A stretch of 64,000 nucleotides of DNA, taken from positions 18,994 through 82,993 of the IMG/VR virus record IMGVR_UViG_3300007609_001138; one strand, written 5' to 3'. Positions 4,964-24,573 of the stretch are shown here, one piece after another (within the stretch, counting starts at the first letter, position 1; the number at the start of each line of letters is the position of its first letter). Both the position numbers and the translations under genes were made by a program. This DNA comes from a virus. A model generated the notes under the pieces. That model saw nothing but the letters and a program-made list of their open reading frames with translations, ran no database searches and was not told the DNA's origin.

Positions 4964-5296
4964 CATATAATGCTGTATATATTGTACCTTGCCGGGCACA
5001 TCTGTCCATGATTTGTGATCTGACAACGGGTCTATTTTTTGAGTAATATTGTTATCTGCCCATTTTGCTGATAGCTCTGCATTTATTTTAAACCAGTCAA
5101 TTCCGTCATCGGGTACTTCGTCTTCTGCAACAATGGCATCCACAGGACACTCTGGAATACAAACTGCACAGTCAATGCACTCATCAGGGTTGATTACAAG
5201 AAAGTCAGGACCTTCGTAAAAACAGTCCACTGGGCATACATCAACACAGTCTGTGTGTTTGCATTTAATACAATTGTCAGTTACTAAGTGTGTCAT
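4955..5296 (-). CDS. fdxA: FdxA-type seven-iron ferredoxin, 113 aa
   Basis: Cysteines 9, 17 and 21 (the last before Pro) with C12 and C25 nearby, followed by C40, C43, C46 and C50 ([11 protein letters not shown]), reproduce the FdxA arrangement of one [3Fe-4S] and one [4Fe-4S] cluster. CPVDCFYEG and DEVP after the second cluster also fit. Length is typical (about 107-113). AGGAG precedes the ATG at good spacing. It is the last gene of the long minus-strand block, eight bases after a ferredoxin-NADP reductase. That pairing suggests a soluble electron carrier supplying the eight radical SAM enzymes upstream; the link to them is inference. Confidence 0.95.
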
Positions 5297-8378: not shown

Positions 8379-9473
8379 TCAATGATCGGCCAGTGCCCGA
8401 ATTTGTTGAGCCATGTAGTCTTGATCACTCCAGTGATACGAATACTCTGCATGTTGATCATTGGTACTAACACTGTGTACATCTAAATAATCGTTAAGCA
8501 GTGCCCAAATGGTTTCAAAATTATCTGTGCCAAAGCTAGCATGCAAGTCTACTTGCCCTATCTGCGGATGCCCAATTGTGAGACTTTTGTCCTCAGGATC
8601 AAATCCGTTTGCTATTAGCCAACTTCTAAAATCTGCCATTTCACGTTGAAAAAATTCATAGTTGCCAGGATTGTTTGCCCATTCGATATCAAAGTCTCCG
8701 GCAGCTTCGGTTTGACTGTTCAACGATGTAGTAACCAACTCGTCAATTCTGCTGTCTCGTCCTTCGTCGTGAAATACTTCCCAGTGATGTTTACCTACAG
8801 CTTTGTTAACTCCTACAAATACACCGCCCAATGGTCTGGCCAGTGTTTCTACTCCAAACAGTTCATAGTCACTTTCGTCTAATGTAAATCTCGGAGCATT
8901 GAGCCAGCACATCAATTGACTAGGTCTACGCCACTCAGGTGCATGTAGTTTTTTACGCATGCTTAGTACAAGACTTTCGTATTCATGGCACAGCAAATTC
9001 AGCTGACGTATGTGCCAGCGAGTCATGTCGTTTGCCTGTTTGTAATAAGGGCTGATATCTGCACTGGTTCCTTGTAGATCTTCAAAGTATCTATGCAACC
9101 AATTCATTTTTTCCTGAACCAGTTTGTGCCCGGGTAAATCCTCACCTACTGGTCCAGTGGTTATTGTGTTTTCAACTGTGAAGTGGTCATGAATAGCATA
9201 GTCCAAGTTGCTAGCGTTGATTGCTGCAATGCTGCGATTGATTTGATCGCAGATGTATTCTGCACTGCGTTCACCGTCAGGAAAGCCAAAAAAGCAATAG
9301 TTCTTTTCTAGATGTAGATCTCTGCTTAGTATTGTGTTTAGTGCGTCAAGCCATTTTCTCGACAGGCCGTTGTCGTATACATCAATGTGCACCGGCAACA
9401 GTGATCCTGATGTACGATTCTTTAGCTCGATTGAAATTTTATCCAATAATTGGAATTGATTGCCACCAGTCAT
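8379..9473 (-). CDS. Conserved-looking protein of unknown function, about 364 aa
   Basis: I recognise no catalytic family. The protein starts MTGGNQFQLLDKISIELKNR, has LLPVHIDVYDN soon after, a charged middle with RWHIRQLNLLCHEYE, and an acidic C-terminal half with ASFGTDNFETIW. Cysteines are few and not spaced as a metal site. The frame opens upstream at GTG 9524 and ATG 9515, but these overlap the preceding radical SAM gene by 77-86 bases; ATG 9473 with AGAGA upstream overlaps by 35 and is preferred. It follows a radical SAM gene directly, so it may be a partner protein of that enzyme. This is context only. Confidence 0.7.
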   Translation of the reverse strand: MTGGNQFQLLDKISIELKNRTSGSLLPVHIDVYDNGLSRKWLDALNTILSRDLHLEKNYCFFGFPDGERSAEYICDQINRSIAAINASNLDYAIHDHFTVENTITTGPVGEDLPGHKLVQEKMNWLHRYFEDLQGTSADISPYYKQANDMTRWHIRQLNLLCHEYESLVLSMRKKLHAPEWRRPSQLMCWLNAPRFTLDESDYELFGVETLARPLGGVFVGVNKAVGKHHWEVFHDEGRDSRIDELVTTSLNSQTEAAGDFDIEWANNPGNYEFFQREMADFRSWLIANGFDPEDKSLTIGHPQIGQVDLHASFGTDNFETIWALLNDYLDVHSVSTNDQHAEYSYHWSDQDYMAQQIRALADH

Positions 9474-10755
9474 AAATGTCTCTGTTGTGTTCCTGTAAAA
9501 TATCGCCGTATCCATAGTTATCACTGCGGATACTCTCTAGTCGTAATACTCGCTTTTTACCTGCGACCAATCCTGACTGCCAGTCATCTGGCCATTGTTC
9601 TTGAAAGGTTGGCCTGTTTTTTAGCTGTAATAGTACGTCTTTTAGTGCGCCATTGGGTACGCTCTGTGATAAGCTGTCAACTTGTTTATCTAACAATTCT
9701 CGAGGCAATGCCAATGGACTTAGCACAATATCCGGAGAGAATCCAAATACAACTTTTGCTAGTATATCCACACCCAGATCGTCGGCTAGCTGTTGCATAG
9801 GCTCTACTTCAAACAGCCCCGGCAGTGTGAGTGTGAAGTCTAATCGCATTTGTCTGCGATTTTTCTGTAGGTCTACACCTTGTTTAAAGTTATCTAAAAA
9901 CTGTTGATAATTCAAGCCAGTGCGTATGTATTCGCCGATTTTACCAGTGCCATCTATGCTAGCACATATCTGCCAGTCTCGTATGTTACTGATAATGTCT
10001 TGATATAGATGCGCACCTTTGTACTCAATTCTACTGAGATTTGTATTGTACCGAGCATAAAGTCCAGGACCGTCTCCCAATTCTACGATCCTGGACATAT
10101 ACCTCCAATGTTGCTCATACATTAGAGGTTCTCCGCCTACCCAATAAACTTCTTGCACCCTGTGTTCTTCAACAGCTTGAGCAAATTCAGCTTCAATCTG
10201 AGTGTCTTGAAATTTGGATATTTCTGCACGGACTTCGGGACGCATCCAATTGTTTTTAGGATTGTCCCAATCGATCATGTTGTGTTTTCGTTGTTCAGTT
10301 TCCCAGGCTGAACTCAACATGTCCCCGCAGGTTCTGCATTTAAAGTTGCAGAGATTACTGAAACGATAGTCCCAGCTAACAGGTTGCATACTGGTATGTC
10401 CTGATTCGTCTGTGTTTTCCCATATATCGTCGTAGTGATGCTTAAACAGATGCCAGAAATAATCTCTATATACATCAGTGTTTAATAGTTTGTCATTGCA
10501 CACTTCGCACTCGCTGAGGGTTTCGCCTGACATCATTCTACGGCGCACACTTTTCATGTGCTCGCTGTTCCAGTGTTCTTCTAGAGTGCTTGGTTGGTAT
10601 TCGCCAGTGCCTGCGTCTGTGTCAATGTACTGTTTGAAATTCTGCGCAGGTTCTCTGCTGGCACAACACATTCTGCGCTCTGTTTGTGGACTGAGATAGG
10701 TGTGTGTCCACGGAGCCATACACAGACTGTGCGGTTTTTCTTTAGGTTTTGTCAT
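9439..10755 (-). CDS. Radical SAM protein 1 (twitch/SPASM-like, subtype A), 438 aa
   Basis: CNFKCRTC at 136-143 is the CX3CX2C motif that binds the SAM-reducing [4Fe-4S] cluster; VGGEPLM is the SAM-amino-group GGEP motif. The N-terminus carries C12-M-A-P-W, M-C30-C31 and C83-x2-C86, a set of cysteines upstream of the core barrel suited to an auxiliary Fe-S cluster. SxDGTG in the second half fits the barrel strand pattern. Substrate is unknown. It lies between the cytidylyltransferase (14-base overlap) and the unknown gene at 8379, and needs one-electron reduction that the nearby ferredoxin and Fpr could provide. Confidence 0.92.
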   Translation of the reverse strand: MTKPKEKPHSLCMAPWTHTYLSPQTERRMCCASREPAQNFKQYIDTDAGTGEYQPSTLEEHWNSEHMKSVRRRMMSGETLSECEVCNDKLLNTDVYRDYFWHLFKHHYDDIWENTDESGHTSMQPVSWDYRFSNLCNFKCRTCGDMLSSAWETEQRKHNMIDWDNPKNNWMRPEVRAEISKFQDTQIEAEFAQAVEEHRVQEVYWVGGEPLMYEQHWRYMSRIVELGDGPGLYARYNTNLSRIEYKGAHLYQDIISNIRDWQICASIDGTGKIGEYIRTGLNYQQFLDNFKQGVDLQKNRRQMRLDFTLTLPGLFEVEPMQQLADDLGVDILAKVVFGFSPDIVLSPLALPRELLDKQVDSLSQSVPNGALKDVLLQLKNRPTFQEQWPDDWQSGLVAGKKRVLRLESIRSDNYGYGDILQEHNRDIYDWWQSIPIIG

Positions 10756-11164
10756 TGTGTAAAGAGGCTACTCTGCGTCTTAGATCGCTGCTGCTGAACC
10801 GATGTTCTCTTTTATTGAAGTATAACTGAATACCACGCTTTTTGCAAATATCTTTGCCAGTGAAGTCATGCTCTCTGTATTCTTCTCCAAGTATGCGCAC
10901 ATCTATGTGCATCATTTCTAAGATGTCTTCTAAATCTCTTTCATTTTCGTACACAACAATTTCATCTACATAGCGCACAGCCTGTAGCTGTGTATATCTT
11001 TCTACCAGTGTTTGCACAGGAGAGTTTTTGTTAGCACGGTCGCGGCTTGGATCCACTTGAAGTCCTACCATTAAGTAATCGCACTGTTCCTTTGCTTCGC
11101 GCAGCATTGCTACATGTCCTGCATGTAACAGGTCAAATGTACTACAGGTAAATCCTACTTTCAT
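10742..11164 (-). CDS. Cytidylyltransferase-like nucleotidyltransferase, 140 aa
   Basis: HxGH motif (HAGH) at 14-17 in the context FTCSTFDLLHAGHV and a C-terminal FSSSDLRRR at 123-131, the counterpart of the RTxGISTT signature, place it in the glycerol-3-phosphate / ethanolamine-phosphate / HldE-type cytidylyltransferase family. Length (about 130-150) is typical of stand-alone members. The family transfers CMP (or AMP) from a nucleoside triphosphate onto a phosphorylated alcohol or sugar, yielding an activated donor. It is coupled by a 4-base ATGA overlap to a radical SAM gene upstream. An activated sugar-alcohol donor for the glycosyltransferase-like genes is a reasonable inference. Confidence 0.9.
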   Translation of the reverse strand: MKVGFTCSTFDLLHAGHVAMLREAKEQCDYLMVGLQVDPSRDRANKNSPVQTLVERYTQLQAVRYVDEIVVYENERDLEDILEMMHIDVRILGEEYREHDFTGKDICKKRGIQLYFNKREHRFSSSDLRRRVASLHNDKT

Positions 11165-12384
11165 TGCACACCCTCATACTCAATCCATTCTGCTAATTCA
11201 CTGTGATGATCTCTAAGGTCTTGACTGCGCTTGAAATCCAAGTCTCTTACCTTCATGCGTAGTATTTGTCCGTCGTGACTTGGGCCGCCGTTCATAAAAT
11301 CAATTATACGCTCGAACTCTTGTTTATGCTTGGGTCCAACATCGGCACTGCGAAGTCGCTGTTCGATTTCATGTTTTGCACGACTAGGTAATGTGCTAAT
11401 ACTGAAATAATAAGCTTCGTGCATCATGTTCCAGTATACAAAATCAAACTCCTGCTGGTCAATCCAATTAGCCAGTGTTTCTAGATATGTAACATTGAAC
11501 ACATTTACTGTGCTACATACCTGAAGTTGTATTATATCAGGGTAACGTTGTTTAAGCTCCCGGAAACGAGAGATATTCTCGTTTACTAGATTCCACTCAG
11601 CATTACTGCGTTGATACTCAAAGCGATCTTCTACATCATCTATGCTGAATGCAATCTCAACAGTCTTAAAGTGCTTCCAAAGATCTTCGCCGGATTCTGG
11701 ATAAATTGTACCGTTTGTGTTGTAGTGAATTTCTACATTGTTTGCGATGCCTTTGTCAACCAAGCTTTGCAAGATGCCAAAGTGTTCTTGAATCATAAAC
11801 GGTTCGCCGCCTGTGAATTCAATATAGCGTATATCATCGCTTACATTATCAAATTGATCCCAGAACGTTTCAGTTTCTTTTGGCCAGGCACCTTTTTTCA
11901 ACATCTCATAGTGATAGCTGTCTTTTTTATCGCCTTCTTCTCTTCTATGAAATTGCAATTCCTCGGCAGCAAACTGTGAACTAGACCATGAACCACAAAT
12001 TCTGCACTTGAGATTACAGATGTTGCCAAGTTTGAGATCAAGAAACATCAAAGGTTTAGCATCCACAGTCCATTCCTGTTCCGGTAGCACATGTTTCAAG
12101 CGATCCAAAGTGTGCATGCGTTTACTGGTACGGCCTGCACGTTCTTCCTTCCAGCATTTCCTACATGTGCGAGGTTGCTTGCCATCTAGAAACTGTTGTC
12201 TTAAATCCTGCATGTAATCGCTGCGTTGTATTTCACCCAAGTCGCTGGCAATAAGTTCAAATTTTTCACCGTTGTTGTCTTTGATTTCGTCTTCGGCAAG
12301 ACAACAAGGTCGAACTGTACCAATGGGACTGGTTTCTAAACTAATCCATGGTAATACACAAAACTGTTCGTGTGGTAAATTCAT
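11161..12384 (-). CDS. Radical SAM protein 2 (subtype A), 407 aa
   Basis: CNLKCRIC at 123-130 gives the CX3CX2C cluster motif and TGGEPFM the SAM-binding GGEP. N-terminal C9-V-L-P-W, P-C27-C28 and C74-x2-C77 match the auxiliary cysteine pattern of radical SAM protein 1. The core continues through HYNTNGT and FSIDDVEDRFEYQR, which occupies the usual SIDG position. The C-terminal third is less conserved. Overlaps neighbours by four bases on each side, so translation is likely coupled. Substrate is unknown. Confidence 0.93.
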   Translation of the reverse strand: MNLPHEQFCVLPWISLETSPIGTVRPCCLAEDEIKDNNGEKFELIASDLGEIQRSDYMQDLRQQFLDGKQPRTCRKCWKEERAGRTSKRMHTLDRLKHVLPEQEWTVDAKPLMFLDLKLGNICNLKCRICGSWSSSQFAAEELQFHRREEGDKKDSYHYEMLKKGAWPKETETFWDQFDNVSDDIRYIEFTGGEPFMIQEHFGILQSLVDKGIANNVEIHYNTNGTIYPESGEDLWKHFKTVEIAFSIDDVEDRFEYQRSNAEWNLVNENISRFRELKQRYPDIIQLQVCSTVNVFNVTYLETLANWIDQQEFDFVYWNMMHEAYYFSISTLPSRAKHEIEQRLRSADVGPKHKQEFERIIDFMNGGPSHDGQILRMKVRDLDFKRSQDLRDHHSELAEWIEYEGVQ

Positions 12385-14087
12385 CGTAGTGCCTCTAATT
12401 CTGGAATTTGTTCTAGTATGTTTTCGTTTCTTATTTGATCAAGCTGATCGGTCTTGGACCAAAACTCATCTATTAGTGCTGTGTTGTCTGTGCTGTTCAT
12501 AAACCGTATTGCACTTTCGAAGCCTTGGGTAGCACGTTGTAGATCATCCTGCGGACGCAACCATTCCAGGTGTTGTTCCCATTTGTGTTGTAGTTTTGCT
12601 TTGTACTCTGCAGGTGCAATGTCAATCCTGTAATGCCTTGGATCTTGTAGTATGTTAACATTGAGATCCTGTGCACGTAACAAACCTTTGTTGACCCAGT
12701 CTTGGTGGAAATCAGTAATATGCCATGCATTCATTATACTCAGTGTAGGACTAATATAAAAGTCCACGTCAGGACAGATTTCCAGCATCTGCTGTCTGTT
12801 GCGTTCCACGTTTGCCCAGGTAGTGCCTTTGCGAATATACTCTGCGTGATTACCCATTGCATCGAGACTGGCACCGACAGCTACACTGTCAAACTTTTTC
12901 CAGTAGTCAAACACCAGTCTATCCTTGAGTTTGACTTCAGTAAAGTTGCTGTTGTAGATTAAACGTACATCAAATCTGCCGCGACGTTCAAGTTCTTCTA
13001 AAATGTTGTAGTGTTCTATCATCAACAGAGGCTCACCGCCAGCAAAATAAATTTGCTCTACGTCGTCGATGTGCTCGACCAACTGTTCCCACATATCAGT
13101 TTCGTGTCTGCCAGCATAGATAAGCACACTGTTTTGTTTTTTCCAATCGTCACCTGCTAGCTTGGCTTGATCTTGATACCAACTACTAGAGAATATATGT
13201 CCGCAACTTCGACAGCTTAGATTACAGAGATTACTAAAACGTATGTCCCAGTAGGTCATTGAAAATTGGTCTACACTACCGTCTTGTTTGGTATCTTTGA
13301 TGCGTTTAATATGGTGACCATGGTGCTTGTTTGCGCTTTGTCTTCCTGAGAAAAATCCTGCATCTTCTTGCTCATAGCATCGAGTGCACCAAGAGTTTTC
13401 TTTTTCAGATAACATGTCTCTGCGAAGTTCGCGCATGCGCTCGCTGTTGTTTATATTCTCTAGTGTGTCCTGCTTGGCATTACCTGCAGGGCCTTCACGC
13501 ATTTCAGCATGACAGCATGGGTACACATCACCAGTGGGATATGCATGTAAATGAATCCATGGATATATACAAAAGCGTTTACTGCCAGTGAGATAAAACT
13601 GTTCACTGTCAGTTACGTCATTGAGATTAATTTTAATTGGATTTAGACTACCGTAACGATATTCGTCTTTTTTACTAGTGGGTAATCTTTCTAATATTCT
13701 TCTATGATGTAGATCTTGTTCAACGTAGACAAATTCAACTGACACAGGGTCATTGCTTAGATCTTTTAATCGACTTTGTTGTTCTTGCCAGTGTGAGCTA
13801 TTAGTTACTATTATAACAAAAAAATTGCTAATGTCAACATGGTTTAATGCCAGTTGCAGATTTTGCAACACCAGGCCCACAGTATCATCTTGTACATAAC
13901 TGTCAGTGGTAGTTGTAAACACCAGGCGTTCTTGGTCACTGTAAGCATCCTTTCGTAGTCGTGCAAGCAATTCAACCAACTGTTGTTGCATGTCTTCGTA
14001 GTGCAATTCAACATAATAATCAAGATCAACAGTGGACACAACTGTGTAGGTTTTTTCTATACTGTTTAAGGTATTTTCATATTTCAT
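12381..14087 (-). CDS. Radical SAM protein 3 with N-terminal extension (subtype A), about 568 aa
   Basis: The last 400 residues are a subtype-A radical SAM enzyme: C-I-Y-P-W, Y-P-C-C, a CTRC pair, CNLSCRSC (CX3CX2C) and AGGEPLLM. It differs in carrying about 170 extra N-terminal residues. These include VIIVTNSSHWQEQQ and VSVEFVYVEQDLHHRR, look alpha/beta, and match nothing I can name. The C-terminus (DQIRNENILEQIPELE) resembles the end of radical SAM protein 6. I chose ATG 14087 because it overlaps the preceding stop as ATGA; ATG 14102 in the same frame is possible. The extension could be a substrate-binding or second catalytic domain. Confidence 0.9.
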   Translation of the reverse strand: MKYENTLNSIEKTYTVVSTVDLDYYVELHYEDMQQQLVELLARLRKDAYSDQERLVFTTTTDSYVQDDTVGLVLQNLQLALNHVDISNFFVIIVTNSSHWQEQQSRLKDLSNDPVSVEFVYVEQDLHHRRILERLPTSKKDEYRYGSLNPIKINLNDVTDSEQFYLTGSKRFCIYPWIHLHAYPTGDVYPCCHAEMREGPAGNAKQDTLENINNSERMRELRRDMLSEKENSWCTRCYEQEDAGFFSGRQSANKHHGHHIKRIKDTKQDGSVDQFSMTYWDIRFSNLCNLSCRSCGHIFSSSWYQDQAKLAGDDWKKQNSVLIYAGRHETDMWEQLVEHIDDVEQIYFAGGEPLLMIEHYNILEELERRGRFDVRLIYNSNFTEVKLKDRLVFDYWKKFDSVAVGASLDAMGNHAEYIRKGTTWANVERNRQQMLEICPDVDFYISPTLSIMNAWHITDFHQDWVNKGLLRAQDLNVNILQDPRHYRIDIAPAEYKAKLQHKWEQHLEWLRPQDDLQRATQGFESAIRFMNSTDNTALIDEFWSKTDQLDQIRNENILEQIPELEALR

Positions 14088-15502
14088 AAATTGTTGTACC
14101 ATTCGGCTAGACGGGGGAACGTTACTGCAAAGTTCTTGTTACGTCTTCTGTCATACTGCTCAAAGAAACGTTTGAAATCTTGTTGTAAAAGCTTGATATC
14201 ATTCTGCCCTTGTTGAAGTTCATAGGGCGTAAGATCATGTTTAGTTACATCTTCCTTGTGCGGATCTACTACATTGCGTATGTATTTGCTGATACGCTGA
14301 ATATGGTCTCTTTCCAAATGGTCGATTACATCTAACACATCAGTACTGGCCATGAATTCATCAATTTCATTTGCAATGGTTTCTCGGACATCTTCGGGCA
14401 ACACAACAATGTTTTGAAATGTTGGGAAACGTACTGGATTAATAGTAAACATCAAATTTTTGCCCTGAGGTTTGGCGGTTTTTTTCTTTTCTACCAGCCA
14501 CTTTAAAAAATCAACAAAGCCATCAGCATTTGGTGCATTAATAGTGCCAATAATACTGATATCCCCTATGTCTTTGCTTGCAATTAAACGATCAAGATTT
14601 CGTTCCCATTGTTGCCAATCCAGACCGTCCCTCACATACTCGCCCTGAGCACCAACACTTTCACTGCTAACATAAGTCCACACAGGTAAATCTATCCTGC
14701 TGATTTTGTCTAGCATTTTGTCAACCACTTTATCGTCGTATGCAAGATTGGTTGTGATTTCAATCCTGCATGTTGCCTTGCTTGGATTTTTCTCTAGCCA
14801 GTCCAACAGTCTCCACATATGAGGGCTCATCATCGGCTCACCGCCTGTGATACGCAGTTGTTTTAAACTGGCAGCTAAACTGTCTTCCCACCACTGAAAA
14901 AATGCTTCTGCGTACTGGTTAACTTCGTTGGGTCCACTGGTCATGCTGTCATCGCAAGGCGAAACATAATGTTGTCTGCGATCAGTTTCCAGCCCTTCAT
15001 ATGCGCCGTTATTGCGCACATCAGTTGCCCAACTGCTGCTGATACTAGGACAACAATAGCTGCATGCCAACTGACAGGTTCTATCAAACGCAATTTCTAA
15101 ATATAGTAAATCAACATCTTGATCAGCTGGAGCATCAAATGCTGACTGTAATTGTTCTTCACTGGCAATAGTACTTAACCAATACCTATCTGCAAGATTA
15201 TTAGGATCTGTTTCTTCCATAACCCAACAAAATTGACAGTTAGCTGGTTTCTCGCCACGTTGCATCATTGCACGTTCATTTTTCTTAACTGAGGTATTGT
15301 GCAATGCTCGGGGATTTTTTTTAATCTCTTCTATATCAATTGCATGCGGTGGATTGTGATGGCAACTTGTAGTCCACCCTTGCTGAAGCCACACACTGGC
15401 ATTATACCACTTAGCACCACAGAAGCTAGGACTCTTGCTGTTAAGCACTCGATCTTTCCACTCTCGGTATTCAGTGTTGTTGTAGAGTTTTATTTTTTTC
15501 AT
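14084..15502 (-). CDS. Radical SAM protein 4 (subtype B), 472 aa
   Basis: CQLACSYC at 143-150 is the CX3CX2C motif; TGGEPMMS the GGEP motif. The N-terminus differs from subtype A: FC28GAKWYNA, then SC47HHNPPH, then C89-x2-C92, i.e. Cys, Cys-His-His and a Cys pair that could hold an auxiliary cluster. The C-terminus has the trio signature YDRRRNKNFAVTFPRLAEW. It is clearly paralogous to the following gene (15499-16851) and more distantly to 19453-20877. Overlaps the next gene by four bases. Substrate is unknown. Confidence 0.92.
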   Translation of the reverse strand: MKKIKLYNNTEYREWKDRVLNSKSPSFCGAKWYNASVWLQQGWTTSCHHNPPHAIDIEEIKKNPRALHNTSVKKNERAMMQRGEKPANCQFCWVMEETDPNNLADRYWLSTIASEEQLQSAFDAPADQDVDLLYLEIAFDRTCQLACSYCCPSISSSWATDVRNNGAYEGLETDRRQHYVSPCDDSMTSGPNEVNQYAEAFFQWWEDSLAASLKQLRITGGEPMMSPHMWRLLDWLEKNPSKATCRIEITTNLAYDDKVVDKMLDKISRIDLPVWTYVSSESVGAQGEYVRDGLDWQQWERNLDRLIASKDIGDISIIGTINAPNADGFVDFLKWLVEKKKTAKPQGKNLMFTINPVRFPTFQNIVVLPEDVRETIANEIDEFMASTDVLDVIDHLERDHIQRISKYIRNVVDPHKEDVTKHDLTPYELQQGQNDIKLLQQDFKRFFEQYDRRRNKNFAVTFPRLAEWYNNL

Positions 15503-16851
15503 AGTTGGGAGTACCAGCTGTTTAGATCAGGAAATGCTGTAGCAAAATCCAAGTCTCTGCGCTCGTCATACTGCGAATAAAACTTTTTAAAGTCGTTTAA
15601 AAGTTTTGGATGTTCAAAGGTTTCTGAGTGCGGAGTTTTTACAACATCTAAGTAATCTATTAAACGTTGTAGGTGATTGATTTCGTGTTGATGTAGCAGT
15701 GTATTGTTCTTGTGAGTATTTAACCATGATTCAAGATCTTGTTTATATTTTGTGCGTATGTGGTCAGGAAATATCAACGGACTCTGAAAACTAGGAAAAC
15801 GTAAAATATTCAATGTAAAGTTAGGACGGTCCTTGCCAAACTCTGCTTTCCATTCTAGTACCCGATCTAAAAATTCAGGTAGACTGTCCAGGCATAGTGC
15901 ATTGATTGTGCACATGTTATGCAAACTGCGTATTTGCGGACTGCGTACCAATAGGTCCATATTGCGTAACCATAGATTCCAATTTAATCCGTGGCGGATG
16001 TACTCAGCTTGCTGATCCATACTTTCGTTACTGGTGTAAATATCCAGTTCGATATCTTTGCAAGCATCCAGTAGTTCTTGAATCTTTTCAGTAGGCAGGC
16101 TCAAGTTGCTGTTGATAGCCAGGCGAGTTTTACTTTTTCCACGATTTTGTTTAAACCATTCAATCAGTCTCCAGGTATATCCGCTCATCAATGGTTCGCC
16201 GCCAGTGATCCTCAATTCTTTCAGTGTGCGGTGAAGATCACTTTCCCACCAACGAAAAAATGCTTCTACATATGGGTTTTCTTCATTGATAGTAAATAGT
16301 TGTGCACTGTCATGTGGATGTGTAAAGTGATTACGACCGTCACTGACCAGTCCGTTGTATGCGCCATTGCGTTTTACGTCCTTTACCCACGTACTGGAAA
16401 ATGCAGGATTACAATAGCTGCATGCCAGTTGACAGGTTCTATCAAAACTAATCTCCAGTGTTTGCAGATCTATATCTGCATCCGGGTCTGTTTCAAAAGC
16501 AGTTTGCAGATCATTGTCGTTATAAATCACACTTTTATACACACGATCGCTGACTGCGTCACGACCCATGTCTTCTATTTTCCAACAGTACTCGCACCCA
16601 GGTGGACGCTCGCCACGCTGCATCATTGCTCGATCTTCTTTTTTCTCTGGCGTGTTGTGCAATAGCTTGGGATTATCAGTGATATCCTTTACAGGCACCA
16701 GATGCGCAGGTGGATGATGACAACTAGTAGTCATGCCCGACCCAAGCCAGATAGTAGCATTGTACCACTTGGCTCCGCAAAAACTAGCACTTTTACTGTC
16801 TAGTACTCGCTTGCGAAATTCTAAGTCTGATTCGTTGTTAAGTCTTGTCAT
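15499..16851 (-). CDS. Radical SAM protein 5 (subtype B), 450 aa
   Basis: Paralog of radical SAM protein 4 along its length: FC25GAKWYNA, SC44HHPPAH, C86-x2-C89, CQLACSYC at 140-147, TGGEPLMS, and a C-terminal YDERRDLDFATAFPDLNSW. Tandem position and matching motifs suggest an old duplication. The separate conservation of all cysteines implies both copies are active, possibly on related substrates or successive positions. The start at 16851 follows the upstream gene by one base. Confidence 0.92.
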   Translation of the reverse strand: MTRLNNESDLEFRKRVLDSKSASFCGAKWYNATIWLGSGMTTSCHHPPAHLVPVKDITDNPKLLHNTPEKKEDRAMMQRGERPPGCEYCWKIEDMGRDAVSDRVYKSVIYNDNDLQTAFETDPDADIDLQTLEISFDRTCQLACSYCNPAFSSTWVKDVKRNGAYNGLVSDGRNHFTHPHDSAQLFTINEENPYVEAFFRWWESDLHRTLKELRITGGEPLMSGYTWRLIEWFKQNRGKSKTRLAINSNLSLPTEKIQELLDACKDIELDIYTSNESMDQQAEYIRHGLNWNLWLRNMDLLVRSPQIRSLHNMCTINALCLDSLPEFLDRVLEWKAEFGKDRPNFTLNILRFPSFQSPLIFPDHIRTKYKQDLESWLNTHKNNTLLHQHEINHLQRLIDYLDVVKTPHSETFEHPKLLNDFKKFYSQYDERRDLDFATAFPDLNSWYSQL

Positions 16852-16852
16852 G

Positions 16853-17977
16853 TTAATATGTTACCCAGCCGTATTCAAATTCAGGCAATACTTTAAGTAT
16901 ATTCCGTTTCCTAATATTATCTCTTAGTTTTATTTCCTTACAAAACTCATCCCAGAGTCCTCTATTAAAAAAATATTTTTGGTCAAGGAACTGTTTAAGT
17001 CCTGGATGCAAATCCTTAACTAATTCAATCTTGTTAACTGCACCAGCGTAAATTTCCGGGGGTAGATTGTTCCAAGTGTATATTCGCGGAGTAAACAGTT
17101 TTGCAAAATGACAATTTAATTGTTTTTTATTTGCATATTCTACAACTTCTATTATACGACAGAAATTTAAATTTGTCACTGTACAATTAAGTGTAATGGC
17201 ATTTAGATTATCAATTGTTTTAAAAGTATCTATATTGGAGTCAATGTCATTCCACTTACTAGGAAATCTAATATACTCATTTACAGGTCCTACTCCATCA
17301 ATACTTATCATGATGTCAACACTGTTGAATTTTGAAAAAATCTCCTGCCACTTTTCAGGAAACACTGTTCCGTTTGTCTGAATGCGCAAGTGTATTTCTG
17401 AACACCAATCAGGATCAGCATCAATCAGTAACTGTTGTATCTCAGGCACAATCAAGGTTTCGCCTCCACGAAGATCCAACACTTCTATGTCTTGCTCGAC
17501 AACACTAGCAAAAATTTCACCAAGTCGCTCTGAAGTGTATTGACAATCGCTCTGTCGTGGTGTTGACTTACCTATAAGTCTGTCTTCTGCTAGTAACATA
17601 GAACTGTCTTGAGGAACACACATTAAGCATTTCAGATTGCAAAGATTGCTTACGTGAAATTCTATACGTCGAGGGAACTCGATATTTAAGTCTGCATCTG
17701 TGATATTAATAGCAGCTAGAGCTTCTGTTCTTGGTGATGTTCCGCTAGCTTCTTCCTGTACATAGCATCCATTGCAATAGCTGTTCTTTTTACCAGCAAT
17801 CATGTCACTACGAAGACTAGTCATTTGGTCACTTAAGAAAAAATCTTGTATACTGTGATTATTCAATGAGTAGTCTGGCTTAGCAAAGCAACATGGTGAT
17901 TGTTTTTTGTCGTTGCGAATTACTACGCTGGTAAATGCATATGGACAAATAGCTTCATTATTCTCGGTGTTTATCAC
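16853..17977 (-). CDS. Radical SAM protein 6 (subtype A, GTG start), 374 aa
   Basis: CNLKCLMC at 113-120 (CX3CX2C), with N-terminal C11-P-Y-A-F, P-C29-C30 and C68-x2-C71. The GGEP position reads RGGETLI, a conservative variant. SIDGVG follows at the expected place. It is the shortest of the subtype-A set. No in-frame ATG occurs before the PCC motif, so GTG 17977 is the start, supported by GAGG six bases upstream; it overlaps the preceding gene by 20 bases. The local sequence is more AT-rich than neighbouring radical SAM genes, perhaps reflecting separate acquisition. Substrate is unknown. Confidence 0.9.
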   Translation of the reverse strand: MINTENNEAICPYAFTSVVIRNDKKQSPCCFAKPDYSLNNHSIQDFFLSDQMTSLRSDMIAGKKNSYCNGCYVQEEASGTSPRTEALAAINITDADLNIEFPRRIEFHVSNLCNLKCLMCVPQDSSMLLAEDRLIGKSTPRQSDCQYTSERLGEIFASVVEQDIEVLDLRGGETLIVPEIQQLLIDADPDWCSEIHLRIQTNGTVFPEKWQEIFSKFNSVDIMISIDGVGPVNEYIRFPSKWNDIDSNIDTFKTIDNLNAITLNCTVTNLNFCRIIEVVEYANKKQLNCHFAKLFTPRIYTWNNLPPEIYAGAVNKIELVKDLHPGLKQFLDQKYFFNRGLWDEFCKEIKLRDNIRKRNILKVLPEFEYGWVTY

Positions 17978-19460
17978 TGTAATCCTCGATATGCTGTATT
18001 ATTTTTTTATGTTTTGCGTAAGAAGCAAATCCACCATGCGCATTATCATATTCATGGTCTATGTTTTTGTATTCTTCAACATGCCAGTAAGGATGTAATG
18101 TATTACAACTGTCAATTGATTTTTTCATTGGCAACTCTAACCATGTACATATATGTGCTAAGGTTTCCTGCGGCGAAAAAATTATGTCTTTTAAAAGAAT
18201 TTTCTTAATGTTTCTGTTTTCAATGGCGTCGTTGAAGTGCGCAGGAAAGGCAAACAAATTGTTGGCAAAATTCAGTGCAGATTCTTTGTGCAAGACAGTG
18301 TGTAAAGTGCGCAATACATCTTCTAATTCAAAATTTTTATTTTGTATTACAATCAAATTTTTTACTCGGGTTTGTAAATAGCCAAACCATTCGTTGATGT
18401 TTATCTTGTGTTGCTCTAAGAGCTTATTATGACTTTCGATTGATGTTTCATAAAACAGATTATCACTGTCAGTAATATGATGTAAAACCTCCGTTAAGCA
18501 TTGGCTAGCTACGCTGGTATTATGTACAATTAAATTACAGTCTGCAAGGGTTTTGTTGACTACCTGATCGTAAATCTCATTTAATATTTTTTCTTTTTTT
18601 TCTGCAATGTAAAATACAGCAGGATAAATGTTTCTAACTTTTGGAGTAGCCAACAAGTCTACAAATTCTTGACTCTGTATTGGTAACTGTTTTAAACAGT
18701 CATGATAAATTATGCTGTCAGTACTTGATATTGATTTTAATTGTGTTAAATGTTGCCTTATTTTTTGTTTATGTATATCTGGAATTTTTTCACGCAACAC
18801 TGGATTTTTATCTCTGAACAAAGTTAGAATTTTTTCATCTTGATCTAGGTACGCCTGTCTATCCTGCCAAAAATTGATAGATTCTTCTATCTCCTTGGTA
18901 GATCGTGCACTATTCTTATGTTTCCACCATTGACATAAGGTAGTTAACGTCTTCACTGGTCTGTTAACCAACTGTTTCATTTTAACTACATGTAAGTTGC
19001 AGTGTTCGATACTGTTAATCTGGTTTGATGCATTTTGAAAAGTAGAGATTGCTCTTGCTAGTTCAATAACATTTGTAACTTTTGTAAAACTGCAAAAGGG
19101 CATTTCGGGTTGTCTATTGTTGAGCAATTCTAGTATGCAGTTTGTAGGATCAATGACCACTGTAGGACCCGTGTCTGCAATTTCTAGAATGTCAGATTCT
19201 ATGTCATTGACATTGTAATGTAATCTCACTATGCTACTTGTTGTGTTTGTATTTGTAAGATGATATTCATCGTGTCTATTGATAAAATTATCACGATAAT
19301 TGTGTACGCTACCGTTTTCGGTTATAACGTCTTCAATGCTTTGGTAATTTAGATCATCTAACCATCCTAGTGCCCAGCATAAAAAGTTTCCGTAATCTCC
19401 GCCTGTATGTACTACACGGAGATCAAACTGTTCGAGATATTTCAAATAGTCGTCATGCAT
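17958..19460 (-). CDS. Protein of unknown function with weak sulfotransferase-like C-terminus, 500 aa
   Basis: Starts MHDDYLKYLEQFDLRVVHTG and continues GGDYGNFLCWALGWL. The middle is helical and charged with no recognised motif. Near the C-terminus, KILLKDIIFSPQETLAHICTWL resembles the family tail in which a sulfotransferase acceptor helix follows a Glu/Asp-rich strand, but no clear PAPS loop is visible, so this is only a hint. AT-rich like radical SAM protein 6 next to it. Overlaps both neighbours by 8-20 bases. Function unknown. Confidence 0.75.
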   Translation of the reverse strand: MHDDYLKYLEQFDLRVVHTGGDYGNFLCWALGWLDDLNYQSIEDVITENGSVHNYRDNFINRHDEYHLTNTNTTSSIVRLHYNVNDIESDILEIADTGPTVVIDPTNCILELLNNRQPEMPFCSFTKVTNVIELARAISTFQNASNQINSIEHCNLHVVKMKQLVNRPVKTLTTLCQWWKHKNSARSTKEIEESINFWQDRQAYLDQDEKILTLFRDKNPVLREKIPDIHKQKIRQHLTQLKSISSTDSIIYHDCLKQLPIQSQEFVDLLATPKVRNIYPAVFYIAEKKEKILNEIYDQVVNKTLADCNLIVHNTSVASQCLTEVLHHITDSDNLFYETSIESHNKLLEQHKININEWFGYLQTRVKNLIVIQNKNFELEDVLRTLHTVLHKESALNFANNLFAFPAHFNDAIENRNIKKILLKDIIFSPQETLAHICTWLELPMKKSIDSCNTLHPYWHVEEYKNIDHEYDNAHGGFASYAKHKKIIQHIEDYSDKHRE

Positions 19461-20877
19461 GATTGTTTTTACTCCTATACTCGCACAGCTTCCACCAGTC
19501 GCTCATCTCTGGAAAAGTTTCCTGGAAGTTTGTATTTCTTCTTCGATCATGCTCGCTGAAAAATCTATAAAAGTCAGCCTGTGCACAATGTAGAAATTCT
19601 GTGTCTAAATCTTGCCCGTTTCGCATCCAGGCAATGTCACGATCCAATCTCTGTATTTCGTAGTCCTTAAATCCTTTAAGTCGTGTGTCTGCTGTTTCGG
19701 CTTGTGCAATCATCCAGCTCCACAATCTTTCCAGTTGTACTACATAGCTTTCTGGCAGTATCTGCAGGCTCTGCCACTCAGGTTGTCTTAGCACAGGAGT
19801 ATCAAACCAAACTCGCTGATAGGTCTCGCTGTACACTTTACGCAAGCCCAGTATACCAGCAAATAGATCACCTAGGCTAGGAACACTGAGATTGTTCATA
19901 GTTACAATAAAAGTAAGACTGCTACGCTCTGGCACTTCATTTAAAAATTGATTGCATCTATCCCACATGAGATCAAAGTCAAGACCGTTGCGCATGTATT
20001 CTGCTTGCTTGCCCCAGCCGTCGACACTGACAAACTGCATATAGTGTTCAACATGTCCTTCGTTGCACAAACGCTTGACATATTCTAAATATTTTTTCCA
20101 CAAACGTTCATCAACGCTGAAATTACTAGTAACATTTAAATGCAATTTGGGATTAGGATTTTCCAACACATAATCAAATACACGATAGGTATTTTTATCC
20201 ATCAACGGCTCGCCACCGGTCATACGAAAGTGTTCTAGTTCTGGATATAGTTCAGGCCACCATTTCCAAAATGCTTCTACATAAGGATTGTGTTCTCTTG
20301 CAGGTATCGGGCGGCGATCTCCTTGAAAGTGTTTTGGGTCGTTGTGCGGTGTACTAGTAGGCCATGCACCATGTTTTTCAGTTTCTTCCATCCACGAACT
20401 ACTAAACTGCGGACTGCAATAGCTGCACCGCAGATTGCATGCACTGTTAAAGTTTACTTCTACATATGCAGGATTCACATCTTCGTCACCGGTGCTGGCA
20501 ATAATATTATCAAAATCTTTGGCGGCCCACGGCTCACCTGATCTATAGTGTCTGTCGCTGAGTTTACCGTTATCCTCCATTGCCCAACAATAGCTGCATT
20601 CTTCTGGACGTTCTCCGGCAAGCATACGTTTACGCTGTTGTTTTTTCCAAGCAGTGTTGTGCAGTGCGCTGGGATTGTTTTCGAGTTCAAGTGCATCAAT
20701 TCTATGCAAAGGAGGATGATAACAACTGTTGTTATAGCCATTGGTGAGGTGTAAACTAACCTGTTTCCACTTTGCTAGACACATGCCAGGGCCAACCTGA
20801 TTCAGTGCGTCTCGCATGTCTTCTGCGTTGGTAATAAACCCACTGCGAAAGTCTTTGTTTACTTCGTCACCTTTCAT
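19453..20877 (-). CDS. Radical SAM protein 7 (subtype B), 474 aa
   Basis: Third member of subtype B: M-C33-LAKW, SC52YHPPLH, C94-x2-C97, CNLRCSYC at 147-154 (CX3CX2C), TGGEPLMD, and the C-terminal signature HDRRRNTNFQETFPEMSDWW. It is more diverged than proteins 4 and 5, which are adjacent to each other. SVDGWGKQAEYMRNG fits the SxDG strand. It overlaps its neighbours by four and eight bases. Substrate is unknown. Confidence 0.92.
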   Translation of the reverse strand: MKGDEVNKDFRSGFITNAEDMRDALNQVGPGMCLAKWKQVSLHLTNGYNNSCYHPPLHRIDALELENNPSALHNTAWKKQQRKRMLAGERPEECSYCWAMEDNGKLSDRHYRSGEPWAAKDFDNIIASTGDEDVNPAYVEVNFNSACNLRCSYCSPQFSSSWMEETEKHGAWPTSTPHNDPKHFQGDRRPIPAREHNPYVEAFWKWWPELYPELEHFRMTGGEPLMDKNTYRVFDYVLENPNPKLHLNVTSNFSVDERLWKKYLEYVKRLCNEGHVEHYMQFVSVDGWGKQAEYMRNGLDFDLMWDRCNQFLNEVPERSSLTFIVTMNNLSVPSLGDLFAGILGLRKVYSETYQRVWFDTPVLRQPEWQSLQILPESYVVQLERLWSWMIAQAETADTRLKGFKDYEIQRLDRDIAWMRNGQDLDTEFLHCAQADFYRFFSEHDRRRNTNFQETFPEMSDWWKLCEYRSKNNHA

Positions 20878-21725
20878 AGATCTTTTTTATACTCTGCGTA
20901 GATTTGATCGCCGTTGTACTTTTCTGGACAGAATTTGCACTGCGGTATACTATTGCCGATATTGGCAAAGAACTGTTCTTTGTTTTCTGCGTCTACTGTT
21001 AGCGGTTGATAACTTTGCATGAGTTTTCTGTCACTGTTACTTAATTGTAATTGATACTGCGAGTCAAATTCTGGCAGCAGTGCTACCACGCCACACTTGT
21101 AGAGTTTTCCGTCTATCCAGTGGTGACAATTTTTCATGTGGCAATTGCTGTGAGCCAATTCTGGATCGCTGTTGTGTAACCGCTTTACACCAAGTTGATC
21201 TATTATAGATCCTTGATGAAACCACCAGTTGTATTCAATCCGGGTAGCAATGCCATTGCAGTCTCGCAAAATTCTGTAAACATTGTACGGATCATCGTTG
21301 TTTACAGTATCGATCACTGGCCCTTCTAACCATTGATGAACTCTAGAAACCACATCCGGTACATGATTTTCGTTGTGTATACCAACCCATACGCTAAATC
21401 TGTCTTTGTACTCTCTATTGAGATCGTAAAGATCTTGTCTGTGTTCAATTCTATAGCCATTGGTAATCAATCGCAAGTATGTGTCGGGCCAAAGCTCAAG
21501 TATGCCGCGGCACCAATCAATTACATCTGGATTAAGCAAAGGTTCTCCACCAAGCACTGCACAGTGTCTAATAGACACAGATTTACTCCACTCTCGGTAC
21601 ACAGGTTCTAAATCTGCCCAGCGTTGGCGTCCACGGAAGTTGTAGTTGTTGAATCTGTTGCAACCAGGGCAACTGAGATTGCACACATTGGTAATGTAAA
21701 ATTCAGAATAATCTAATTGGTGCAT
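20874..21725 (-). CDS. Radical SAM protein 8, short form with C-terminal cysteine cluster, 283 aa
   Basis: Unlike the other seven, the cluster motif CNLSCPGC lies at the very N-terminus (15-22) with LGGEPLLN at 58-65. Auxiliary cysteines are C-terminal: C195, C200, C211, C263 and C266, a SPASM/twitch-like arrangement. The strand ITNG at 87-90 and WVGIHNEN are typical. Size fits short radical SAM/SPASM proteins. The start at 21725 overlaps the glycosyltransferase-like gene by 13 bases. Related proteins act on peptides or small molecules; the substrate here is unknown. Confidence 0.92.
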   Translation of the reverse strand: MHQLDYSEFYITNVCNLSCPGCNRFNNYNFRGRQRWADLEPVYREWSKSVSIRHCAVLGGEPLLNPDVIDWCRGILELWPDTYLRLITNGYRIEHRQDLYDLNREYKDRFSVWVGIHNENHVPDVVSRVHQWLEGPVIDTVNNDDPYNVYRILRDCNGIATRIEYNWWFHQGSIIDQLGVKRLHNSDPELAHSNCHMKNCHHWIDGKLYKCGVVALLPEFDSQYQLQLSNSDRKLMQSYQPLTVDAENKEQFFANIGNSIPQCKFCPEKYNGDQIYAEYKKDL

Positions 21726-22693
21726 GGTATACTTGCTATAAAATCTTTGTTCATATCCAGCAAAAGCTGCCTATTGTGCTCTAGTGTGGGCAACATTTCG
21801 TTGTAGATTTTTTTGATTTCGTCGGCGGGTTTTTTGGCTAGACGATCAATTACTTTTTTAATCTCGCCTGGCTGCCAGTCAGCTGGATCTTCGGCATAAC
21901 CTTCGTCCCACCATTGATTAAAAGTTTTGAATCCTAATTTTTGTAATCTATGTAAAAAATGCTGGGACCCTTGTACTATAAACGGAGTTTGCATTATGAT
22001 AGGTCTCCAGATTTTTTCTGTTGGGAAAAATGTATTTCCTACATAGGAAGTTTCGCACACAATTTCTACAAAAAAATTTCTGTATTGCGAATACATGTTA
22101 CAGTGTTGATTCATTAAAATTGGATACTCTACTGTTTCCTGTAATCTGATTGGACAATGCCGTAAAAAGTTTGATATAGACGCAAGATCACCGGTTCCTT
22201 GTATTTCTACTAGAGTGTCAAGTCCAAGGTTGTTCTTATGATAATCGTCTGAGTAATCATAATGAAAAGTTTGATTTGTTTGCTGTCTATACTTGTTGAA
22301 CAAGTAACTGCTTAGATCCAGTCTATGACAATTACTACGTCCTACAAAAATACCAAATGTTTTTGTAATATCTTTGTTGATTGGTTTGTTTTCTAGTTTT
22401 TTAACAGTGTTAAAAACAAAATGATTAGGAAAAACAGTTTCGAAATTGATTTGATCAACAGACTGCTGATAGGTATTGCAACTTGTAACAGTGATATTAT
22501 CGAGATTATAATTGTGTTCTTTGCAGATACGTATCAATGAATCGAATATATCTAGATTTTCAAAAGCAGGTCCTTCAGACAGAAGATCAATACACACAGG
22601 TTGATTGTTGCAAACAGCCGATGTAAATTGCGAAACAACTTCTATTTTGTTCCACACATAGCTGTCGCTGGTAATCAATCGTATTGTTACCAC
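21713..22693 (-). CDS. Glycosyltransferase-like protein (GTG start), 326 aa
   Basis: C-terminal block with FFPTEKIWRPI, PFIVQGSQHFL and GFKTFNQWWDEGY, the same signature as the plus-strand protein at 2794-3921, followed by a helical tail (LPTLEHNRQLLLDMNKDF). The N-terminal half is unassigned alpha/beta. The frame has no early ATG; GTG 22691-22693 overlaps the stop of the preceding GT-A-like gene and is taken as start. Probably a cytoplasmic sugar transferase, based on motif resemblance only. Confidence 0.75.
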   Translation of the reverse strand: MVTIRLITSDSYVWNKIEVVSQFTSAVCNNQPVCIDLLSEGPAFENLDIFDSLIRICKEHNYNLDNITVTSCNTYQQSVDQINFETVFPNHFVFNTVKKLENKPINKDITKTFGIFVGRSNCHRLDLSSYLFNKYRQQTNQTFHYDYSDDYHKNNLGLDTLVEIQGTGDLASISNFLRHCPIRLQETVEYPILMNQHCNMYSQYRNFFVEIVCETSYVGNTFFPTEKIWRPIIMQTPFIVQGSQHFLHRLQKLGFKTFNQWWDEGYAEDPADWQPGEIKKVIDRLAKKPADEIKKIYNEMLPTLEHNRQLLLDMNKDFIASIPCTN

Positions 22694-23610
22694 CCTTCGA
22701 TCTGCCTAATTACATCAATTTCACGGACCATTATACCGCGATTGACCCAATCGCTGCGATAGTGCTGTTTAAAAAATGCACTGGCAGTGTCAGAAAAGTC
22801 AGCCAGTGGCAACTCCAGTTGTGTTGCTAGATCTTCACTTACACTGCCGATTACTTCTCTTGGATGCCGATCTTCAACTGTGGTCCACAATTCAGCTAGT
22901 TTGTCAAAGTCTTGCACATCTTTATAGTTCCAGTTGGTTAACATGGTCATGTAAGTGCCTTGCCTGGCACCTGCAATTGCCCATTCACCGTTTTCCACAT
23001 CGTAGCCAACGTTGTGCCAGATAGTCAAATGATCAAGATTTCTTTTGTGAACGCTATCTTTGAATTCATCAACACTGGGCTTTGTGCCTTTGTTGAGGCA
23101 CATTTTTACACCTTCTCTGAATCCTGCCCGCCATGCATGAAAAGCACTGCCATTGGGATAAGTTACACTGTAACAGTCATGCATTGCCCAGTACAATGGA
23201 TCAAAGCAAAACTCAACATCAGTGTCATCGGAGCCTGTGCTGTTTTCGTGTGTGTTCATATTAAACACAAAGTCTTTGGTCCATGAACTAACACCGCCGT
23301 TGCCGTACATCAATCCATTGACAACATTTCTAGCTCGCCAACGATAAACAGCACGTTGATATTCTTCTGTGGGCATGTCCAGCGTTTGATTGAAAAAATC
23401 AGCTTCTGGAATATTGTCACCATCAATGAGAATAAAGCGATCAGTATCTGATTCTTCAGCGGCAGCTTTGTGGGCAGCATCGCTGCCTTTAACACCGTCT
23501 ACTCGTTTGGCCCAAGGAATCATGTTTTTGATCTGAACCCAGAACTCTTCTTTCAGTGGCTCGTCGTAGGTAAGAAAAATACAGTCTAAATCTGCTACAT
23601 CTACTTTCAT
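22687..23610 (-). CDS. GT-A-like glycosyltransferase, 307 aa
   Basis: PWAKRVDGVKGSDAAHKAA followed by DRFILIDGDN (DGD at 63-65) matches the nucleotide-sugar and metal-binding segment of GT-A glycosyltransferases. GGVSSWTKDFV and SAFHAWRAGFREG follow in the acceptor half. Related modules with the DxD apparently lost occur in the long repeat protein at the left edge of the window. Starts with ATG 23610, one base after the methyltransferase gene stop. A role in building a phage-directed glycan is likely; donor and acceptor unknown. Confidence 0.8.
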   Translation of the reverse strand: MKVDVADLDCIFLTYDEPLKEEFWVQIKNMIPWAKRVDGVKGSDAAHKAAAEESDTDRFILIDGDNIPEADFFNQTLDMPTEEYQRAVYRWRARNVVNGLMYGNGGVSSWTKDFVFNMNTHENSTGSDDTDVEFCFDPLYWAMHDCYSVTYPNGSAFHAWRAGFREGVKMCLNKGTKPSVDEFKDSVHKRNLDHLTIWHNVGYDVENGEWAIAGARQGTYMTMLTNWNYKDVQDFDKLAELWTTVEDRHPREVIGSVSEDLATQLELPLADFSDTASAFFKQHYRSDWVNRGIMVREIDVIRQIEGW

Positions 23611-23611
23611 A

Positions 23612-24262
23612 TTAATGTCCTAAAATAAATCTCACACTGCCGTTGCAATTAAAGTATCCCCGTCCGTGCCAGTCATGTCCTCTTAGTTTAGGACAATCAA
23701 ACATTTTTAACTTGTACCCACTCTGCGCCACTGTGTTGTAAAACTTGGTTAGTACTATATCCAAGTTATCACTGGGCAAGTTTTGCATTTGATCGAAATT
23801 AAAAGTAAACAAAAAGTCACGTTTAACAACACGCATTGCGTTGTGTATCTGCTTAGGCAAACTTTGCCAGTCGCAGTAGTGTAGACTGCCCAGTGCCATG
23901 CCAGCGTCCCAGAAGTTTTCATTGATGTCTGCATAATCTGTATCAAAGTATGCTATGTCATCCACTGTGCCGCCCGGCCATTCTTCAGTGTCCACTCCTA
24001 TAATGCCAGGAAACCAGTTTGCGAATATGTTTTCACCACAGCCTATGTCAACCACACTGTCTGGTTCACAGGTATACAGTCGATCAATATACCAGAAGAT
24101 ATCTCTAAAGCCAATTTTCAATCCGCTTTCATATCTATATCTAGGAGTGCTTTTTGGAATCTCTACGTCCAGTGACACATAGTCATAGTGTTGATGTAGT
24201 CTAGCATCTAGATCAGGAAAAACTGCAAAAGTCTTTTCAGGTGAATAATTATTTACAAGCAC
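23612..24262 (-). CDS. SAM-dependent methyltransferase-like protein (GTG start), 216 aa
   Basis: VDIGCGEN at 71-78 is motif I of class I methyltransferases; GVDTEEW supplies the acidic residue after strand beta-2, and AGMALGSLHYCDW is in the motif IV position. The C-terminal part has VVKRDFLFTFNF. Size is typical of small-molecule or sugar methyltransferases. GTG 24262 is the only reasonable start, with GGGAG upstream. It sits among glycosyltransferase-like genes, consistent with O-methylation of a sugar, which is inference. Confidence 0.82.
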   Translation of the reverse strand: MLVNNYSPEKTFAVFPDLDARLHQHYDYVSLDVEIPKSTPRYRYESGLKIGFRDIFWYIDRLYTCEPDSVVDIGCGENIFANWFPGIIGVDTEEWPGGTVDDIAYFDTDYADINENFWDAGMALGSLHYCDWQSLPKQIHNAMRVVKRDFLFTFNFDQMQNLPSDNLDIVLTKFYNTVAQSGYKLKMFDCPKLRGHDWHGRGYFNCNGSVRFILGH

Positions 24263-24573
24263 TGCTTTAACTCCCAGTGATAATCTGTATCTGCAATTAC
24301 CATTACATTGTTTGGTAATGTACTTGTGCCCGATGTACCTGGTACAAGTTTTGTTGGCACAGTATCATTTATCTCGACTATTTGATTGTTTTTTATAATC
24401 ACATTGTAGTTGCCTTGAGCATACTGTGCCTTGCTGATGTTAATATATTTAAAATTCAAGTCTTCCATGCTATAGCATATAGGTTCACCGGTGCTTTCAT
24501 TATAATACAATCTATATTCAACTTCAACTGAATTGAGTTGAATTTTTGCAAACTCTTGTAAAAAATCATTCAT
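24253..24573 (-). CDS. Small phage protein of unknown function, 106 aa
   Basis: Begins MNDFLQEFAKIQLNSVEVEY, continues with YRLYYNESTGEPICYSMED and a beta-rich half (NVIIKNNQIVEIND). No catalytic motif is visible. An upstream TTG at 24585 is possible, but ATG 24573 is a better start and overlaps the preceding glycosyltransferase-like stop by eight bases. Small proteins of this look accompany glycan-modification genes in marine phages, as far as I recall. No function can be assigned. Confidence 0.7.
   Translation of the reverse strand: MNDFLQEFAKIQLNSVEVEYRLYYNESTGEPICYSMEDLNFKYINISKAQYAQGNYNVIIKNNQIVEINDTVPTKLVPGTSGTSTLPNNVMVIADTDYHWELKQCL

Follow-up and report, generated by a model that had tools for sequence, protein, structure and literature searches.

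What do seven radical SAM genes on one strand of a phage genome do, and do the two N-terminal cysteine signatures that divide their products into classes A and B mean that the auxiliary Fe-S clusters have different ligands in each class? The genes lie in a 64,000-nucleotide stretch (the window) of an IMG/VR phage record of 82,993 bases. All seven open reading frames were confirmed at the positions given below, where genes are referred to by their first coordinate.

4955-5296, minus strand: ferredoxin (Fer4 PF00037, 6.7e-8; DUF3470, 3.6e-13)
5304-6011, minus strand: ferredoxin reductase-like FAD/NAD protein (PF00175, 3e-7; PF00970, 6e-5), in 2 of 11 phage records including the source
6709-8217, minus strand: carbamoyltransferase (PF16861, 4e-49; PF02543, 3e-38), with homologues beside Bdellovibrionota class B genes
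8379-9524, minus strand: conserved cassette protein of a family not named, without Pfam match (28 viral loci, median identity 59%)
9439-10755, minus strand: class A radical SAM orthogroup, 438 aa (NF033640, 292 bits; median identity 72% in 42 viral loci)
10742-11164, minus strand: cytidylyltransferase-like protein within the cassette (PF01467, 5.6e-15)
11161-12384, minus strand: class A radical SAM orthogroup, 407 aa (NF033640, 337 bits; AlphaFold2 pLDDT 88.8)
12381-14102, minus strand: class A radical SAM orthogroup (NF033640, 403 bits over residues 173-570; SPASM PF13186, 1.7e-12)
14084-15502, minus strand: class B radical SAM, lineage-specific paralogue of 15499 (44% identical; NF033640, 277 bits)
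15499-16851, minus strand: class B radical SAM, conserved orthogroup 2, 450 aa (NF033640, 303 bits; 69/78 viral loci, median identity 66%)
16853-17977, minus strand: divergent class A radical SAM on a long tree branch, outside the conserved core and absent from the syntenic core (NF033640, 257 bits)
19453-20877, minus strand: class B radical SAM with N-terminal twitch domain, conserved orthogroup 1, 474 aa (NF033640, 330 bits; AlphaFold2 pLDDT 94.6; 78/78 viral loci, found in part by its own motif, median identity 71%)
20587-20781, minus strand: twitch part of 19453, with C32 before the hairpin, G46-x4-C51, HPxxH with H57, and C93xxC96 in helix 91-101 (numbering without Met; from invariant columns and DSSP of the model)
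20874-21725, minus strand: eighth radical SAM gene, without N-terminal twitch domain, a variable accessory (PF04055, 4e-11; NF033640, just 26.7 bits)
22687-23610, minus strand: conserved cassette member with a DGDN motif and without known fold (78/78 viral loci, median identity 69%)
26491-27456 and 27463-28836, minus strand: two tail/virion-type proteins near the start of the syntenic block, assigned by synteny and, for 27463, by tail fibre/virion PHROG matches

The gene run from 8379 to 26144 is tightly packed, and adjacent genes either nearly touch or share 4 to 86 bases. The maximum, 86 bases, is found between 8379-9524 and 9439-10755; this overlap may be real, or the start of 8379 may lie further downstream. 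The class A protein encoded at 12381-14102 has an extra N-terminal region of ~170 residues, without Pfam match and mostly missing from its orthologues. Rfam and tRNA scans over the whole window detected nothing. Elsewhere in the record, a TctC-type periplasmic binding protein (PF03401, 6.7e-23; 60188-61111, plus strand) is a possible auxiliary metabolic gene.

Each of the seven proteins carries the CxxxCxxC motif of the SAM-cleaving cluster. The first-pass annotation, which was made from the sequence, knew no named family for class B. In a profile search all seven proteins matched NF033640 (N_Twi_rSAM) over their full length with 257-403 bits, against a curated cut-off of 170, and three bacterial class B proteins scored 266-312 bits. 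Class B thus belongs to a named family, as all of its members tested exceed the cut-off, but that family is uncharacterised and has no known function; the refuting outcome set out in the annotation, assignment to a family already characterised, has come true in the naming alone. NF033640 is defined by a twitch domain N-terminal to the core, and the proteins studied here have the same architecture: in 19453, C32, C51, C93 and C96 precede the core C146xxxC150xxC153. The earlier proposal of an auxiliary Fe-S cluster domain ahead of the radical SAM core is supported by these four invariant cysteines and their twitch order. The NF033640 model does not separate class B and specifies neither function nor substrate, and the name conveys neither the tail synteny nor the PqqD link described below. 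The 83-kb source record encodes these seven NF033640 proteins plus one sub-threshold match, and ten related phage records (183-344 kb) have 7 to 15 N_Twi_rSAM matches each, many of them outside the tail-side cassette.

The seven-cysteine SPASM motif serves two auxiliary clusters. It was not found in these proteins, which have four auxiliary cysteines only; the Pfam SPASM profile (PF13186) scored above its cut-off with three of the four class A proteins and gave no match with class B.

The two classes are distinct, as first described, each with its own N-terminal signature in all seven proteins. The class B proteins show CGAKW, CGAKW or CLAKW, then SCHHNPPH, SCHHPPAH or SCYHPPLH, then CxxC. In 171 class B proteins of full length, the second cysteine (C2) is followed by His (85) or Tyr (86), the next position is His in 164, and the last His of HPxxH (C2+6) is present in all 171 sampled. 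With wider bacterial sampling this last His was missing in 6 of 52 class B proteins, five of which fall in a single nested group where CC has reappeared; this group includes two fusions of about 1,500-1,600 residues. In the fusions (L101:5142-9629 and L102:5116-9951) the class B domain, with CC in place of HPxxH, is joined to ~1,000 more residues without a clear Pfam domain. The class B signature is far beyond chance. In a quick tree, built without bootstrap, class B and the nested CC group form one side of a branch of length 1.42 with SH-aLRT support of 100; class B is a well-supported clade, whose marks are AKW, one additional hairpin residue and the His/Tyr-His-Pro-x-x-His stretch, and class A is the remainder of the tree and not one clade. 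Both signatures read as first described except for one letter in the tail of 15499, and the C-terminal tail proposed as a further class B mark needs small corrections: 15499 reads YDERRDLDF at the place of the expected RRN, and the D..RR..F...FP....W tail, present in class B, is a version of a family-wide tail at which the class A protein 11161 also aligns (DFKRSQDLRDHHSELAEW).

Pattern searches gave 80 viral loci; after removal of the near-identical L001 and L002, 78 remained. Because the class B motif of 19453 was among the search patterns, some of its conservation in these loci follows from the search itself; this bias touches neither the 15499 orthologues nor the bacterial profile hits. 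In all 78 loci the recognised genes lie in one order on one strand, as far as the contig ends permit: 28866, 27463, 26491, 22687, 19453, 15499, 12381, 11161, 9439, 8379 and 6709. The conserved operon core beside the tail genes hence comprises two class B and three class A orthogroups, with 14084 and 16853 outside it; orthologues of 14084 were seen only in L001 and L002. The five radical SAM genes have median identities of 66-72% and 22687 one of 69%, versus 44-50% for the tail-type genes 26491 and 27463. No Pfam or NCBIfam match was found for the 22687 protein.

A tblastn search with the class B protein 19453 returned no match among 50,697 phage records, and because of this the cassette carriers look like an uncultivated jumbo-phage lineage. 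The same isolate collection gave no match from which a host could be read. Three contigs from bacterial bins (L081, L082 and L086; Rickettsiales, Pelagibacter and Betaproteobacteria MAGs) carry the tail block together with the cassette and are probably phage DNA in bins; these MAGs are unrelated, so no host is named from them.

Large phages with many radical SAM genes are already known. The available parts of the published descriptions report 11-12 such genes in Campylobacter phages CP220 and CPt10 (PMC2853527), 12 in the T4-like marine genome TARA_ERS488813_N000010 (PMC5332604), and radical SAM cassettes in the host-recognition cluster of pelagimyophages (PMC7029224). These phages resemble ours in carrying many radical SAM genes in one large genome or as cassettes; the same parts of the descriptions name no class and no conserved order of five paralogues. 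We found no paper in the open-access literature on an N-terminal twitch class with the class B signature, on its PqqD link or on the tail-side order.

A scan of bacterial genomes identified eight contigs with class B genes. Three of them are the contigs with the phage block, which look like phage DNA in MAGs; in the others, titled Bacteriovoracaceae, Oligoflexia and Bdellovibrionales, class B lies among genes that appear chromosomal by eye, and in one (L084) class B and class A members stand side by side. Within the taxonomic class of L084, class B was detected at E ≤ 1e-60 in 48 of 129 genomes. In the tree, phage and Bdellovibrionota sequences group together in all five orthogroups; Bdellovibrionota chromosomes hold the same five orthogroups as the phage core. 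Homologues of two other cassette genes were also found there: that of 22687 directly upstream of a class B gene (L112), and that of 8379 near one (L133).

Some of the bacterial genes have a candidate partner nearby. A PqqD/RRE match lies within 500 bp of class B in 17 of 77 genes, from 17 genomes, where ~0.05 would be expected, which places direct adjacency about 300-fold above chance; Pfam PqqD matches reach 5e-15. The remaining 60 class B genes have no adjoining PqqD gene. In 12 genomes PqqD was near 5 of 27 class B versus 0 of 64 class A genes, but these genomes were partly chosen for such pairs, and this contrast was set aside in favour of the 17/77 figure. No PqqD (PF05402) match above cut-off was detected in 11 phage records, and when ortholog profiles of the phage proteins 24253, 26141, 8379 and 28866 were compared with PqqD, hhalign gave a probability of ≤2%, so that a hidden PqqD among them was rejected. 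A PqqD gene as likely partner, as with PqqE, was thus seen for part of the class B genes, in bacteria only.

Around the PqqD-linked class B genes, small Peptidase_S74-domain proteins (4.6e-17), long pilin-like proteins, a nucleotidyltransferase-like family, carbamoyltransferases and Wzm/Wzt-like transporters recur, several of these neighbours having been named by eye. In two loci (L113:5914-8116 and L108:8939-9698) PqqD adjoins a small Peptidase_S74 (endosialidase chaperone) protein with a leader-like stretch of ~40 residues before the domain, and about ten loci of the Bdellovibrionota class have this pair close to class B and to long pilin-like proteins. This pair may possibly represent an unusual RiPP-type or fibre system, and the small S74-domain proteins are candidate precursor peptides. 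The phage tail proteins 27463, 26491 and 28866 contain no S74-type domain. The nucleotidyltransferase-like domain (ESDIDVTV) occurs fused to a class A radical SAM protein at L108:3667-6006, and as a free-standing form beside class B in several bacterial loci.

The bacterial PqqD adjacency points to a peptide substrate for class B, but a sugar substrate remains the main rival because the neighbours of the cassette are often of glycan type: glycosyltransferases, a carbamoyltransferase and a cytidylyltransferase, with Wzm/Wzt-like exporters in bacteria. According to this alternative, a sugar, sugar nucleotide or lipid-linked glycan is processed in series by dehydration, epimerisation or oxidation, as in BtrN, DesII, BlsE or AprD4, and decorates the virion or the host surface; the bacterial PqqD would then be part of a distinct peptide branch within the same surface loci. 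The presence of the carbamoyltransferase and the cytidylyltransferase within the cassette itself agrees with it, as do the glycosyltransferase-like and Wzm/Wzt-like genes that surround bacterial class B (with a GT4 match in L114) and the occurrence of BlsE and DesII among the fold neighbours. The roughly 300-fold excess of direct PqqD adjacency counts against it, however, and no fusion of class B to a sugar-specific domain was seen. We consider a small-molecule or glycan pathway a serious competitor, although it has well under even odds. A narrower version of the peptide reading, in which class B is a new peptide-modifying subfamily that acts, together with PqqD, on precursors of fibre type in Bdellovibrionota while a lineage of jumbo phages applies the five-enzyme set to its own tail fibres, is put forward tentatively, as a rather unlikely proposal in this full form. 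We know of no previous description of radical post-translational modification of a virion.

The second part of the question concerns the cluster ligands. The first-pass annotation had inferred ligand sets that differ between the classes, possibly with His in class B. Four cysteines, C27, C46, C88 and C91 (14084 numbering, without Met), and the three core cysteines are invariant across the seven-way alignment as well as in alignments of 68 and 35 rows. Both classes share the layout: a first cysteine ahead of a β-hairpin, the GX4C cysteine behind it, and CxxC in the helix that follows. The spacing from the first to the second cysteine is 18 in 194 of 194 distinct class B sequences and 17 in 178 of 178 class A sequences counted; the class B hairpin (C-x18-C versus C-x17-C) is thus one residue longer. 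Relatives that have just one cysteine where 'CC' would stand retain it in the first position (spacing 17), and the next residue is S, G, R or Y (for example CIVPFTNLILNPNGDVGVC-R and CLAPWTHAFVDLNGIRRLC-S). In the nested class B subgroup with C-C, the first cysteine stands at spacing 18. Class B contains G-x4-C, that is, the SPASM/twitch pattern, which has been given as CX9-15GX4C (PMC6231123). A gap-free MAFFT register, which pairs the class B C2 with the second cysteine of class A, was rejected on account of the single-Cys relatives and of the GX4C glycine, which fixes the register.

Since the single-Cys relatives keep the first cysteine, it is the GX4C cysteine, present in both classes, that is conserved. 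From these alignments it is most likely that classes A and B share the same four auxiliary-cluster ligands, and that the dispensable second cysteine of class A is replaced by His or Tyr in class B. By analogy with BtrN, the four cysteines would hold one auxiliary Fe-S cluster in both classes. As four cysteines are already present, a His ligand is not needed in class B, and the His/Tyr-His-Pro-x-x-His residues more probably belong to the active site or the second shell than bind iron. Different ligand sets in the two classes, with at least one His after C2 bound to the class B cluster, would explain why HPxxH is nearly invariant in class B and why CC was restored together with loss of HPxxH in one nested group. 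The four cysteines are nevertheless present and aligned in both classes, and the second cysteine of class A is dispensable in relatives; we hence regard different ligands as improbable and favour a shared set.

AlphaFold2 gave models of high confidence for 19453 (pLDDT 94.6, pTM 0.92) and 11161 (pLDDT 88.8, pTM 0.87). By DSSP, the 19453 model runs from C32 through a hairpin (E38-42, E47-49) to C51 and a helix (91-101) that holds C93xxC96, and the class A model of 11161 has the same order of Cys, hairpin, Cys and CxxC helix. The twitch fold has been described as a β-hairpin followed by a helix, with one cysteine on either side of the hairpin and two more at the helix (PMC6231123); at the level of topology, both models show this layout. 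Foldseek and VIA-align matched the core to SkfB, SuiB, anSME, BlsE, DesII, MoaA and viperin. These order-dependent aligners paired only the core, because the twitch domain sits at the opposite end in the known structures, and the absence of some twitch families from the match lists was given no weight.

BtrN, SkfB and MoaA resemble our proteins in the core fold and in having one auxiliary-cluster domain of β-hairpin and helix with cysteines before and after the hairpin (PMC6231123), but their twitch domain is C-terminal, their core identity is about 10-15% and their substrates, where known, differ. The SPASM maturases anSME, SuiB, PqqE and CteB share the C-x(n)-G-x4-C half-motif, and class A matches Pfam SPASM; here, by contrast, four auxiliary cysteines would serve one cluster, and class B has no SPASM match. 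Twitch enzymes also act on small molecules, as BtrN and MoaA do. Nucleotide or DNA modification of QueE, MoaA or viperin type, for counter-defence or genome hypermodification, is very improbable: the core matches the MoaA, QueE and viperin models weakly, with ≤37 bits against curated cut-offs of 180-284, and the locus carries genes of tail and surface type, none being recognised as serving nucleotide hypermodification.

Taken as a whole, the best explanation, to which we assign a probability of about 0.5, is that these are NF033640 enzymes with a shared auxiliary cluster that act serially on a peptide-bearing or glycan-bearing surface structure. In each enzyme SAM would be cleaved at the core cluster, the 5′-deoxyadenosyl radical would abstract a hydrogen from the substrate, and the auxiliary cluster would accept the second electron, a role proposed for BtrN and seen in SuiB (PMC9012708). 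The cassette enzymes would do so in sequence on one such structure. In bacteria the class B substrate would most likely be a peptide or protein that PqqD delivers, and in the phage a tail-fibre protein or its decoration; both assignments are less certain than the electron-acceptor role. The ferredoxin encoded at 4955-5296 in the same gene run is a plausible electron donor for the cassette enzymes; homologues are present in 6 of 11 phage records including the source, that is, in 5 of the 10 large relatives.

The uncharacterised family NF033640 occurs commonly in large phages and in Bdellovibrionota. It is now split into testable orthogroups, and a wrong lead, different cluster ligands, has been removed. 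Two handles have been gained: i) the candidate PqqD partner of class B in bacteria, and ii) the tail-side operon of the phages. Should tail fibres prove to be the target of the phage enzymes, this would reveal a route by which some marine giants diversify their host recognition.
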